Origin: Butyrivibrio sp.
GTDB lineage: Bacteria > Bacillota > Clostridia > Lachnospirales > Lachnospiraceae
Direction: 5' to 3'
NCBI RefSeq assembly: GCF_017433805.1
Contig: NZ_JAFRGN010000021.1
Coordinates: forward strand, 1-32,958
Length of the DNA: 32,958 bases
In this document: piece after piece, positions 14,416-17,593 of the stretch
Numbering within the stretch: position 1 is the stretch's first letter
How the letters are laid out: every line of letters begins with the position of its first letter
Notes under the pieces: model-generated
Database searches by the model: none
Seen by the model: the letters and a program-made list of their open reading frames with translations, nothing else
Told to the model about the DNA's origin: nothing
Made by a program: the position numbers and the translations under genes

Positions 14416-15783
14416 TTATATAATTAGTCCTTGTCTCCAATCTTTCATGTGGAAGCGGACGAAGGCGGTGGCACCTACTATTGTCCAGGTAATTCCTGTT
14501 GAAATCCACAGTCCCCATGCTCCGATAAATGGAATAGCACAAAGGAATGCTGGGAAGATTATTCGTCCTATCATCTCTGAGGCTCCGGAAATTGCTGGGA
14601 ACTTGGCATCGCCAGCACCATTTAATATTCCTCGGCATACATAAATGGTTCCAAGTGGCAGATAGAAGTATGACAATATACGCATAGCACTTGAACCGTA
14701 AGCTATTATCTCTGTTTCTGAGCTGTCTATGAATATCTTTACCAGAACGTCTCCGAACAATCCCATAACTATGATCATGACGATGGCGTATATCACCATC
14801 ATCTTCATTCCGTTCTGATAGCCCTTTCTTACGCGATCGCCCTTGCGAGCTCCGATGTTCTGACCTGTAAAGGTAGAAAGAGAATCCTGGAGAGCTTTGA
14901 ACTGCATATTTACAAGGTTTTCAATCTTACTTGTAGTGGTAAAGGCTGCGACAACCACAGAGTCAAAGGAATTGATAACTCTCTGTAATATTACGAAGGA
15001 AAGAGCTACAAGTCCGCTCTGAAGTGCCATTGAACCTCCGATGGTATAGCACTTGGCAATGATATAACCATCTAGCTTCCAATCAGATCTGTCTATCTTG
15101 AAAACAGGATTCCTAAGGAATGCATAGAGTATCGAGCATGCTGCGGATAGAATCTGTGCTGTGATAGTAGCAATAGCAAGTCCTGATACACCAAGGTCAA
15201 ATACAATAACAAATACCAGATCCATGGCTACATTCAAAAAACTGGAAATAATGAGGAAATAGAGCGGTGTTTTGGAGTCGCCGATTCCTCGCATTATATA
15301 AGAAATAGTATTGTATAGTGCTGTTCCAAAGAAGCCTATGCAGGTTATGGACATATATGCTACAGCATTTTCCAGGATATCTTCTGGAGTCTTCATGACA
15401 TAGGTCAGTACTGGTCTTGAGAAAACAAAGCCAAGAAAGCCTACAAATAAAGAAGTTGCTGTCACGATTACAAGTGCATTGGTGATGACCTTTTTAACGC
15501 CCTTCATATTACCGGCGCCAAAAAACTGTGATACAACAATGCCAATACCTGTGGCAAGTCCGTTACCTAGTGCAAAGAAAAGGTTTGTAACGTGACCAGT
15601 AGAGCCAACAGCCGCAAGAGCTCTGGCATCGATGAATCTGCCTGCTATGATCGTGTCGACAATGTTATAGAATTGTTGGAAAATATTTCCCATCATCATG
15701 GGAAGCATGAATGCAAGGATCAGTTTGGTAGGATCACCAACTGTCATATCCTTGGCATATTTATCTGCCATTGGGTTAGCCAT
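14416..15783 (-). CDS. MATE family efflux transporter
   Basis: A 455-aa membrane protein with twelve predicted helices in two homologous halves, the normal MATE layout. Recognisable parts are PTKLILAFMLPMMMGNIFQQ and YNIVDTIIAGRFIDARALAA at the N-terminus, and LPLGTIYVCRGILNGAGDAK in the second half. MATE proteins use Na+ or H+ gradients to export cationic compounds and drugs; the substrate is not predictable here. AGGAGAT precedes ATG 15783. Its 3' end meets the AP2 gene with one base between the stops. A long inverted repeat (15815-15870) occupies its promoter region and may serve regulation. Confidence 0.93.
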   Translation of the reverse strand: MANPMADKYAKDMTVGDPTKLILAFMLPMMMGNIFQQFYNIVDTIIAGRFIDARALAAVGSTGHVTNLFFALGNGLATGIGIVVSQFFGAGNMKGVKKVITNALVIVTATSLFVGFLGFVFSRPVLTYVMKTPEDILENAVAYMSITCIGFFGTALYNTISYIMRGIGDSKTPLYFLIISSFLNVAMDLVFVIVFDLGVSGLAIATITAQILSAACSILYAFLRNPVFKIDRSDWKLDGYIIAKCYTIGGSMALQSGLVALSFVILQRVINSFDSVVVAAFTTTSKIENLVNMQFKALQDSLSTFTGQNIGARKGDRVRKGYQNGMKMMVIYAIVMIIVMGLFGDVLVKIFIDSSETEIIAYGSSAMRILSYFYLPLGTIYVCRGILNGAGDAKFPAISGASEMIGRIIFPAFLCAIPFIGAWGLWISTGITWTIVGATAFVRFHMKDWRQGLII

Positions 15784-15814
15784 ATTATCTCCTGCTCAAA
15801 TCAATAAGACATGT

Positions 15815-15870
15815 TCCGAAATAAAGTAGGAATTCTTACACAATATAGATTGTTCTCAATTTATTTCGGA
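15815..15870. promoter_or_regulatory. Nested inverted repeats in the MATE promoter region
   Basis: Outer arms tccgaaataaa (15815-15825) and tttatttcgga (15860-15870) are perfect 11-mers. Inside lies acaat-atag-attgt (15840-15853), an operator-like dyad. On the minus strand TTGAGA precedes the inner dyad and AAGAAT follows it at promoter spacing, so the inner dyad would sit between -35 and -10. Operator function is inferred. Confidence 0.45.
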
Positions 15871-16000
15871 GATTATCGTAACTCATGATTGAATATAAGG
15901 CAACACCTATCGTAAAAGTACACATTTATCTATCATTGAAGCATTGAATAATTATTACTGCAAAAATATGTCTAGTTCCTCACTGTTTTCTTTCCCATAA

Positions 16001-16870
16001 TTACATTATATACTTTTTTATCATCTGTCTTATCATTTTATCATTGAGCACTACTCCTGATGATTCATAGGATATGATCAGTTTGTCTCCTGGATAGATT
16101 CCATTTGCTATATATGAATTTATCTTCCTTATGGCATTCTCGGCATATGCTGGATCATCCATTCTTCCATCATGTTCCCAGTACACTTCTTTTCCATCTC
16201 TTTTTCTTAGAAATGTAAAGTCAGGATACACTGTTCCAAAGCCCTTTAGACTTATAGGACACTCATATTTATATTCAATTCCTATGTCATAGAAGGTATC
16301 AGCAAGGATTTTCTCAGATTTAGAGCGGACTCTTTCCCCTTTCTTGGTGTATATTTCAGGTATCCCGGGCATAAACTCTTTGCCTACATACGGAGTATTC
16401 TTCCACTCTTGCAATTTTTGCTCCCATGGCACTTCTACGGGCTTGATCATTGTCTTTCTGATTGGATGAAGCTTTTCGTAGATTTCCTCTATTTCATTGT
16501 CATCGTACTCTTTTACCAGCTTTCCAAGCTGCTTTAGGCGCTTATCGACTAGTCTTTGGATTTTCTGGTCATAGGACTTCTGCGCAAGGCGATACGCCAA
16601 TGGAATGTCTTCTTTCTTGATGTATACTCCCTGTTTTCTGCTTTTTGCCTGGCTTTGATTCTGATTTTGTTTCTGGTTTGGTGTCAGGTTTGATGTCTGG
16701 CTTTGTTTTATGTCAAACTCATCCAAACAATGCATGTACTGCGGGTGCTTGCCACTTGAAGTTATCCTAAGATTGCCATCTGGGACATTGATTAATCTCT
16801 CATCCACTATATGCTTGATAGCAATTAGCCTCTCTTCCTCTTTAACAAGCATTTCTTTTAATCTTTTCAT
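16001..16870 (-). CDS. PD-(D/E)XK nuclease-like protein downstream of a hairpin array
   Basis: A 289-aa protein in three parts. Residues 1-60 are charged helix. Residues 55-80 are a Q/N/S-rich linker (SNLTPNQKQNQNQSQAKS). Residues 85-140 are a basic coiled-coil-like region (YDQKIQRLVDKRLKQLGKLV). The C-terminal half has a restriction-endonuclease-like core: helix with Glu at about 186 (RSKSEKILADTFYD), YECPISLKGFGTVYPDFTFL with Asp at about 217, and KEVYWEHDGRMDD with Glu at about 232, where E-H replaces the usual E-x-K. These fit the alpha-beta-beta pattern of the fold. Start: ATG 16870, with AGAGGAG eight bases upstream; the GTG two codons earlier is too close. The leader upstream is the 53-bp repeat array. 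Nuclease activity and target are not established. Confidence 0.65.
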   Translation of the reverse strand: MKRLKEMLVKEEERLIAIKHIVDERLINVPDGNLRITSSGKHPQYMHCLDEFDIKQSQTSNLTPNQKQNQNQSQAKSRKQGVYIKKEDIPLAYRLAQKSYDQKIQRLVDKRLKQLGKLVKEYDDNEIEEIYEKLHPIRKTMIKPVEVPWEQKLQEWKNTPYVGKEFMPGIPEIYTKKGERVRSKSEKILADTFYDIGIEYKYECPISLKGFGTVYPDFTFLRKRDGKEVYWEHDGRMDDPAYAENAIRKINSYIANGIYPGDKLIISYESSGVVLNDKMIRQMIKKYIM

Positions 16871-16917
16871 TATCACTTCTCCTCTAATTATTGTTGCAGT
16901 TTTGTTTTATGAAGTTG

Positions 16918-17366
16918 TAGTTTTTCTTTTGAGGCAGCTTTCTGCCTAATATGAACATTCCTTGAATTTAGTCAGTTACTTTTCTAGGCTATTATCTGCC
17001 TATTTTTGACTTTCTAAATTTGTGGCAGTTCATTTTCTCATCATTTATCTGCCACTTTTCAAAAATATGCAATTGCGGCAGTTCTTTTCCCATCTATTTA
17101 TCTGCCTATATTCATAGATACTAAAATTAGGCAGATTCACTCCTTGTAAATCAACTGCCTAAATCACGGCACCTTTAATTTAAGCAGATTTCATCAGCGA
17201 AAAGAGCCTGCCGCAAAATCAAATATCTTGATTCAGGCAGTAAACGCCCTCGTTTTCGTACTGCCGAAATCCGAAAAGCAGCAATTCCAACAGGAAACGC
17301 ATTCAATTCACACCTGTTGAAAAGCGCAAAATCACCATTCCAGCAGTCTCAAAACCTCATTTGCTC
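16918..17366 (-). repeat. Array of degenerate 53-bp repeats, each with a GGCAG...CTGCC inverted pair
   Basis: The left motif GGCAG starts at 16971 (GTCAG), 17024, 17077, 17130, 17183 (AGCAG), 17236, 17289 (AACAG) and 17342 (AGCAG), always 53 bp apart. The right motif CTGCC starts exactly 25 bp later at 16996, 17049, 17102, 17155, 17208, 17261 and 17314 (CTGTT). A further CTGCC at 16942 belongs to a decayed unit. Stems differ but pair: GTGGCAG/CTGCCAC, TTAGGCAG/CTGCCTAA, GGCAGTA/TACTGCC, CAACAGG/CCTGTTG. Units at 17024 and 17077 share 35 of 53 bases by hand alignment. The array has no reading frame and lies between a promoter at 17475-17502 and the nuclease-like gene. Strand is given as that of the likely transcript. 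Confidence 0.85.
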
Positions 17367-17428
17367 AATACAAATGGAAAAAAATCCGATCACAACAGCC
17401 GAATTTACTGTCATGTGGAATTAGATAC

Positions 17429-17450
17429 GCGGCTGGTCATAGCCAGCCGC
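17429..17450 (-). promoter_or_regulatory. GC-rich hairpin at the start of the array transcript
   Basis: gcggctgg and ccagccgc form a perfect 8-bp stem with a 6-nt loop. On the minus strand it would start about 18 nt after the predicted transcription start. No T-run follows on either strand, so it is not an ordinary terminator. Confidence 0.6.
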
Positions 17451-17474
17451 CATAATCAGAATAAATCCTAGAAA

Positions 17475-17502
17475 AATATATCACAGTCTCAATATTTGTC
17501 AA
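17475..17502 (-). promoter_or_regulatory. Strong sigma-A promoter reading through the hairpin array
   Basis: On the minus strand TTGACA (17497-17502, perfect), 16 bp, TATATT (17475-17480). Predicted start near 17468. It points away from the ABC-F gene end and toward the array and the nuclease-like gene; no other gene lies downstream before 16870. Confidence 0.75.
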
Positions 17503-17517
17503 CAAGCATCATCATAA

Positions 17518-17558
17518 ATAATCATCTACAACAAATCATCCACAATAATCATCTACAA
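17518..17558. repeat. Direct repeat of 14 bp at 27-bp spacing
   Basis: ataatcatctacaa occurs exactly at 17518-17531 and 17545-17558, with related aatcatc copies between and before. It lies between the ABC-F stop and the array promoter. It may be simple-sequence drift or a pair of protein sites upstream of the promoter. Confidence 0.5.
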
Positions 17559-17593
17559 TACTCAACAAATATCGTCATCAACGCATCCCCACA

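Follow-up and report, generated by a model that had tools for sequence, protein, structure and literature searches.

The window, by which we mean the whole stretch of 32,958 nucleotides from a Butyrivibrio sp. genome that was analysed here, carries on its minus strand a gene for a 289-aa nuclease-like protein (16004-16870, with the ATG at 16870 and the stop codon at 16001-16003). On the 5' side of this gene lies an array, not assigned to either strand (16934-17346), in which the inverted words GGCAG and CTGCC alternate with a period of 53 bp, equal to five helical turns, and whose outermost complete unit reads CAACAG/CTGTTG. When one mismatch was allowed, the 53-bp register contained 15 half-sites between 16942 and 17346, of which two have a mismatch, while further one-mismatch words at 16971 and 16891 were left out. 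Words of the GGCAG type start at 17024, 17077, 17130, 17183 (AGCAG), 17236, 17288 (CAACAG) and 17341 (CAGCAG), and words of the CTGCC type at 16942, 16996, 17049, 17102, 17155, 17208, 17261 and 17314 (CTGTTG). The steps measure 52-54 bp, mostly 53, the words within each unit are about 25 bp apart, and a short palindrome, GGCAG-CTTT-CTGCC (16934-16946), marks the gene-proximal end. The original prediction had described a real array with this period and this distance within the unit upstream of a nuclease-like gene, and both the half-sites in register and the position of the array 5' of the minus-strand gene bear it out. The change of GG/CC to AA/TT that it had noted at 17289/17317 is real as well; it belongs to the CAACAG/CTGTTG unit, which carries the word of several close relatives (loci L008, L012, L013 and L017). 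The word of the window array appears to be changing, with GGCAG inside and the sister-clade CAACAG at the outer end.

Tandem Repeats Finder covered only part of the array (16992-17128, period 53), and an exact 6-mer chain search missed drifting arrays, scoring only 3 for that of the window. It was replaced by a drift-tolerant chain search (7-mer, one mismatch), which gave 10 half-sites for the window locus and at most 6 for all of the 348 dinucleotide shuffles of 116 loci. A three-half-site pattern matched six times in the window's own genome, always inside this array (reversed-pattern control, 0), so that by pattern search the window's own word forms a single array there. ARAGORN found no tRNA.

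Farther 5' of the gene, a conserved leader block (17377-17503, minus strand) with two predicted hairpins (17429-17450 and about 17391-17417) is common to 8 of the 116 loci, in eight genomes (L001, L008, L009, L012, L013, L014, L017 and L039). The fold of seven aligned sequences, L039 being left out, scored -21.8 versus a mean of -0.3 for shuffled columns. The covariation term of +1.0 offers no net support, and the hairpins therefore rest on conservation, not on covariation; the block may nevertheless be a regulatory RNA of its own. A promoter-like site, TTGACA-16-TATATT (17475-17502, minus strand), is located 5' of leader and array and agrees with the consensus at 11 of 12 positions; it is a consensus match only, and the stretch holds five such sites versus 2.8 in shuffles. 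Judged from this arrangement, the array is probably part of the transcript leader of the nuclease gene, which would allow autoregulation as well. Just outside the leader, on the side of the ABC-F gene, there is a degenerate tandem repeat with short 13-bp units of the ATCATC type (17508-17581).

The nuclease-like protein family

An AlphaFold2 model of the window protein displays an N-terminal helix with a beta-hairpin, a long helix and a C-terminal PD-(D/E)XK-type domain, and this last domain is predicted to be homing-endonuclease/Vsr-like and may resemble that of I-Bth0305I. Residues E186, E203, D217, E232, H233 and E269 are invariant across 38 aligned homologs. At E<=0.001 the window protein had no Pfam or NCBIfam match, and for seven family members a Pfam limit of E 1 brought only weak and scattered matches; among solved structures there was no sequence relative, the best match (E 0.084) being to unrelated enzymes. 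The C-terminal domain is homologous to the nuclease domain of the PADLOC candidate PDC-S68 (E 5.8e-26). The family is multicopy, with up to 11 paralogs per genome, and in the samples searched its full-length form was found only in Lachnospiraceae, by named records, and in one other family of the order. In a viral collection nine contigs matched, mainly in the nuclease domain. In G349, G395, G509, G636, G680 and G690, from other families of the phylum, different ORFs carry the C-terminal nuclease domain; they are often much larger, reaching 1,269 aa, which is in line with the PDC-S68 match.

The predicted beta-hairpin (codons 33-48; 16727-16774, minus strand) is a candidate for the element that reads the array word, on the basis of the AlphaFold2 model and of an association test. 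For this test, 181 pairs of 50 representatives with 52-75% identity were compared, 20 of which share a word. Word-sharing pairs resembled each other more over residues 33-48 than in other parts, by an excess of 0.188 that was reached by 2 of 1839 permutations; this stretch had been picked after an earlier comparison of words and identities, and the permutations ignore kinship. In a test over all windows the best one, residues 37-47, was reached in 40 of 1839 permutations. Seven listed proteins combine a hairpin ending of the form Q(Y/F)MHC with a word that contains CTGC, and four combine QYIQC with CTGTTG, while other combinations of ending and word are found at L015, L020, L022, L027, L039, L044 and L021 (HYMHC with AGGCATG). 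Residues of the predicted hairpin vary with the array word, which is an association and not a proof.

Arrays at homologous loci and their helical register

Of more than 150 family loci, 116 were examined over 800 bp upstream and 60 bp of the gene. Alternating inverted arrays (score >=7) were present at 72 of them and in none of the 348 shuffles, whereas the other 44 loci scored <7. Outside the genus, arrays were found at 24 of the 42 loci analysed, a set of 50 from which seven same-genus loci (five of them repeats of earlier ones) and one that was too short had been removed. The site chains of family loci count 7 to 24 per array, and sequence logos of arrays scoring >=9 reveal that 7-12 positions are conserved in each half-site and that the spacers mostly are not. 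Near relatives use words such as CAACAG and GCAGA, distant ones TACGTGA, TCGATGC, TTAGCC, TATATAC and others; a word 5-mer was shared by 16 of 19 protein pairs with more than 80% identity and by 48 of 1504 pairs with less than 50%. It had been asked whether homologous genes are preceded by the same array, and the answer is positive for the architecture and negative for the sequence, as the words differ by lineage. Downstream of the gene, exact cognate words within 500 bp occurred at five loci only (arrays scoring >=8), amounting to 9 matches in 28.8 kb versus 1 in 42.6 kb of genic control.

Among the 72 arrays, periods fall into clusters of 51.4-54.4, 62.0-64.3, 73.4-75.2 and 83.7-84.2 bp, which are separated by empty intervals and correspond to classes of five, six, seven and eight turns that lie about 10.5 bp apart. 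Periods outside the genus were 52.0-54.0, 61.2-64.7, 71.0-74.0 and 84.3 bp, L158 (71.0) fitting least. A Rayleigh scan of the periods indicated a step of 10.4-10.7 bp (R 0.87-0.88), with p values of about 1e-22 for 64 proteins, 1e-15 for the 44 under 70% identity and 2e-7 for the 20 under 50%. The turn class requires at least 10 changes on a tree of 71 members that was built with FastTree and is weak in its deep forks. As the step equals the pitch of B-DNA, the arrays are spaced by whole helical turns, which argues for a protein on DNA, rather than RNA, as the determinant of the spacing.

Dispersed arrays, co-occurrence with the gene and insertion

Arrays also occur away from family genes. A scan of 380 kb of the window's genome detected two gene-linked arrays and three without a family gene; when this whole genome was searched for the words of two paralogs, the TTAGCCG word was found at nine places (33 sites; control 0) and the GATGC word at 20 places (58 matches; control 4), where several single matches may be due to chance. 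The family gene beside one TTAGCC array (L007; G000:C57:177979-178284) has an in-frame stop, even though the genome contains nine arrays of its word. The placement of 25 listed arrays was judged with a crude gene caller: two are gene-linked, one lies inside an ORF, one lies in a coding repeat and one overlaps an ORF end by 154 bp, and the remaining 20 lie between ORFs, save for overlaps of at most 20 bp or with doubtful ORFs of 70-76 aa. Five dispersed arrays are situated between convergent 3' ends of ORFs (C64:45k, C64:99k, C64:114k, C34:98k and C35:15.7k). At one locus (L359; G000:C74:1-298), GATGC words with a 63-bp period lie inside the coding repeat (63 bp, 21 residues) of a 485-aa ORF, and this array may have become coding sequence.

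Fifteen GATGC arrays were compared with each other, namely the gene's own and 14 without a gene that had been picked from the 20 places. Beyond their words, 45 of the 105 pairs were similar at E<1e-3 and 17 at <1e-10, versus 0-2 and 0 pairs, respectively, in ten spacer-shuffled controls. Five of the most similar arrays are colinear; on visual inspection, the stretches of similarity begin and end roughly where words lie. Many GATGC arrays are thus copies of an element and did not originate independently.

Co-occurrence of gene and array could be tested cleanly for one word, TTAGCC. Among 61 genomes, a triple TTAGCC pattern was present only in G000, G001 and G031, which are the genomes where a nuclease with the TTAGCC word was found; the chance of this set is 2.8e-5, in a count that includes the genes' own arrays and in which two of the three genomes look closely related. 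Among 29 hand-picked arrays, the repeat spacing follows that of the local gene's array: TTAGCC words are spaced by 64-65 bp in G000 and by 74-76 bp in G001 and G031, TACGTGA words by 63-64 bp in G026 and words of the GGCAG class by 53-54 bp in G012. One step of 55 bp, about one turn short, stands among the 64-bp steps of the G000 TTAGCC array at C64:45k, and the TTAGCC arrays at C64:109k and C64:114k, which are outside the set of 29, have steps of 54 bp that are likewise about one turn short. In G012, where a gene of the window's word class is present, the GGCAG/CTGCC pattern matched 41 times at many places (control 0); across relatives this pattern is too permissive for a clean count of co-occurrence. 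Two exceptions were encountered. TCACGTA arrays exist on C44, C47 and C48 of G000, in which no cognate nuclease was found, and the gene may have been lost or may lie in a gap; G016 has an orphan CTGCC array whose period is unlike that of the weakly scored gene array there.

A 1711-bp segment that comprises gene, array and leader (15881-17591, minus strand) and lies between the ABC-F and MatE genes is absent from the relative G330; there, an inverted MatE gene comes after the ABC-F gene at a distance of no more than about 70 bp. The MatE gene of the window (14416-15880) is inverted relative to that of G330, with the segment at one edge of the inversion, and arrays may have promoted this inversion. 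Between ABC-F and MatE in G014, inspection by eye revealed an array with another word (GGTATTAC/GTAATACC; L258), and the stretch that was read showed no nuclease gene. A further gap, flanked by genes that we take from their translations to be coaX and coaBC, was comparable in 13 of 28 loci. It measures 11-47 bp, or the genes overlap, in nine of them and 107 bp in G002. In G000 it is occupied by a GATGC array (403 bp), in G330 by an AATACCA array (302 bp) and in G014 by a partly unreadable stretch of 555 bp. Arrays thus enter gaps in which there is otherwise next to nothing.

Interpretation and comparison with known systems

REP/BIME repeats with their RAYT enzymes are well-studied dispersed bacterial repeats tied to an enzyme of their own. 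Arrays and gene family probably form a partnership of a similar kind, in which arrays that would be bound at the DNA level are associated with a resident PD-(D/E)XK-type endonuclease; binding, cutting and mobilisation are what we infer from the sequences. The protein would read the array word with its beta-hairpin and bind the inverted half-sites as dimers, or as a regular oligomer on one face of the DNA, and its nuclease domain would cut or nick in or near the array. Repair of the breaks would then lengthen and shorten arrays and seed copies at other places, which would make the arrays non-autonomous mobile repeats and the gene their resident enzyme, following the logic of REP/BIME and RAYT with unrelated parts. 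If so, partnerships of repeat and enzyme arose more than once, here with an unrelated endonuclease and with sites set by the pitch of DNA. The partnership would account for the repeat arrays scattered through genomes of a common rumen and gut bacterial family and would offer a large natural series of proteins, words and spacings for learning sequence recognition, and a possible movement of repeats by the enzyme is directly testable in culturable Butyrivibrio. We see an even chance that the arrays constitute a separate class of miniature mobile elements, with short words in helical register as their ends and internal sites, which are moved and amplified by a hairpin-reading enzyme of homing-endonuclease-like type. 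In that event, repeatedly diverged words and turn numbers would amount to a natural protein-DNA recognition code, exemplified by QYMHC or QFMHC hairpin endings with CTGC words and by QYIQC with CTGTTG.

Among the alternatives, the protein might be a sequence-specific regulator that uses a nuclease fold for binding, represses its own gene by way of the leader array and regulates other operons through dispersed arrays. The window array does lie between the promoter-like site and the gene, and some dispersed arrays lie 5' of genes, for example at C57:137k, ahead of what its translation leads us to regard as a glycosyltransferase-like gene, and at C29:8.4k, ahead of a run of genes that are presumably flagellar. 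Such operators are nevertheless unlikely, because five dispersed arrays are located between convergent ORF ends, many GATGC arrays are copies of one another, the residues of the nuclease core are invariant and 7 to 24 sites per chain are many for an operator. We give still less credence to dispersed anchors that would serve host DNA topology or segregation in the manner of parS or of gyrase-binding BIMEs. Helical phasing, dispersed and mostly intergenic placement and alternating orientation would suit this role, but several private words per genome, a patchy occurrence (TTAGCC in 3 of 61 genomes), an operon gap invaded by arrays with different words and up to 11 paralogs per genome speak against it.

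The original prediction had preferred selected base pairing in RNA and had named phased protein sites, 53 bp being five turns, as an alternative; it is the alternative that the homologous periods of five to eight turns strongly support. Hairpins of a leader transcript acting as decoys, processing sites or guide-like RNA would be in agreement with the stable folding of the window array (z-score -6.48), with its possible location in a transcript leader and with the two hairpins into which the leader block 5' of it folds. However, the z-score is identical on both strands, and in 61 arrays mismatches between partner words were of the G-U type in 271 cases and of the A-C type in 259 (869 others; 4873 matches), so that wobble pairs are not in excess. 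Also, the periods step by 10.5 bp, sister arrays are dispersed and mostly intergenic, and 23 of the 25 listed arrays are outside any family gene's leader. We consequently rejected base pairing in RNA, and a functional RNA array is highly improbable; a gathering-threshold scan of Rfam yielded no match. The resemblance to guide-RNA arrays that had been pointed out fails as well, as the short words are constant within an array and the spacers drift. Drifting outer units and the 44 homologous loci with scores <7 are what chance or a decaying tandem repeat without a partner would lead one to expect. Yet as a general account this is refuted by the shuffle controls and the clustering of periods, and conserved words between drifting spacers and recurrence across genera leave it a negligible probability.

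The preferred reading, a REP/RAYT-like partnership, can be compared with known systems. The passages of the RAYT paper that bear on this report that repeats alternate in orientation, that enzyme and repeat co-evolve and that the presence of the gene correlates with that of the repeats (PMC2817692), and REP repeats are described in a passage of PMC8266576 as hairpins headed by GTAG. As in the REP/BIME and RAYT systems of these passages, the repeats studied here are dispersed, mostly extragenic, alternating and regularly spaced; as in the REPtrons described there, a resident enzyme goes with a repeat word of its own, the words change together with the enzyme lineage and repeat presence follows the cognate gene (TTAGCC, 3 of 61 genomes), TCACGTA in G000 excepted. 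In contrast to RAYTs, the enzyme is predicted to be a PD-(D/E)XK-type endonuclease and not a Y1/HUH tyrosine transposase (IS200/IS605-type), and the Y1 family is absent from the Pfam matches of seven members up to E 1. The words, of about 7-12 positions, are not hairpins, unlike REP as presented in those passages (a palindrome of 20-50 nt with a GTAG or similar head), and spacing quantised by helical turns figures in none of the REP/RAYT passages of PMC2817692 and PMC8266576. Unlike in REPtrons, the gene is not flanked on both sides by repeats, cognate words being found 3' in five loci only.

I-Bth0305I dimerises on nearly 60 bp according to a passage of PMC3943268, so that a dimer spanning a pair of inverted half-sites is plausible; in contrast to this EDxHD homing endonuclease, no intron or intein location was seen for the present family, and its arrays offer many sites instead of one target. 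The Rpn nucleases (YhgA-like, Transposase_31) are, in the abstract of PMC5350276, likewise multicopy PD-(D/E)XK nucleases linked to DNA mobility, but RpnA has little sequence specificity and arrays do not appear in that abstract; none of the members scanned, seven of them up to E 1, matched the Rpn models of Pfam. The PADLOC PDC-S68 models span about 1,200-1,270 positions, and the match here is confined to about 115 C-terminal residues. Among the matches listed from the open-access literature, judged by title and opening abstract, none described such a pairing of array and nuclease. We rate the partnership of array and nuclease as categorically new in its parts and as working like a known kind, that of REP and RAYT.
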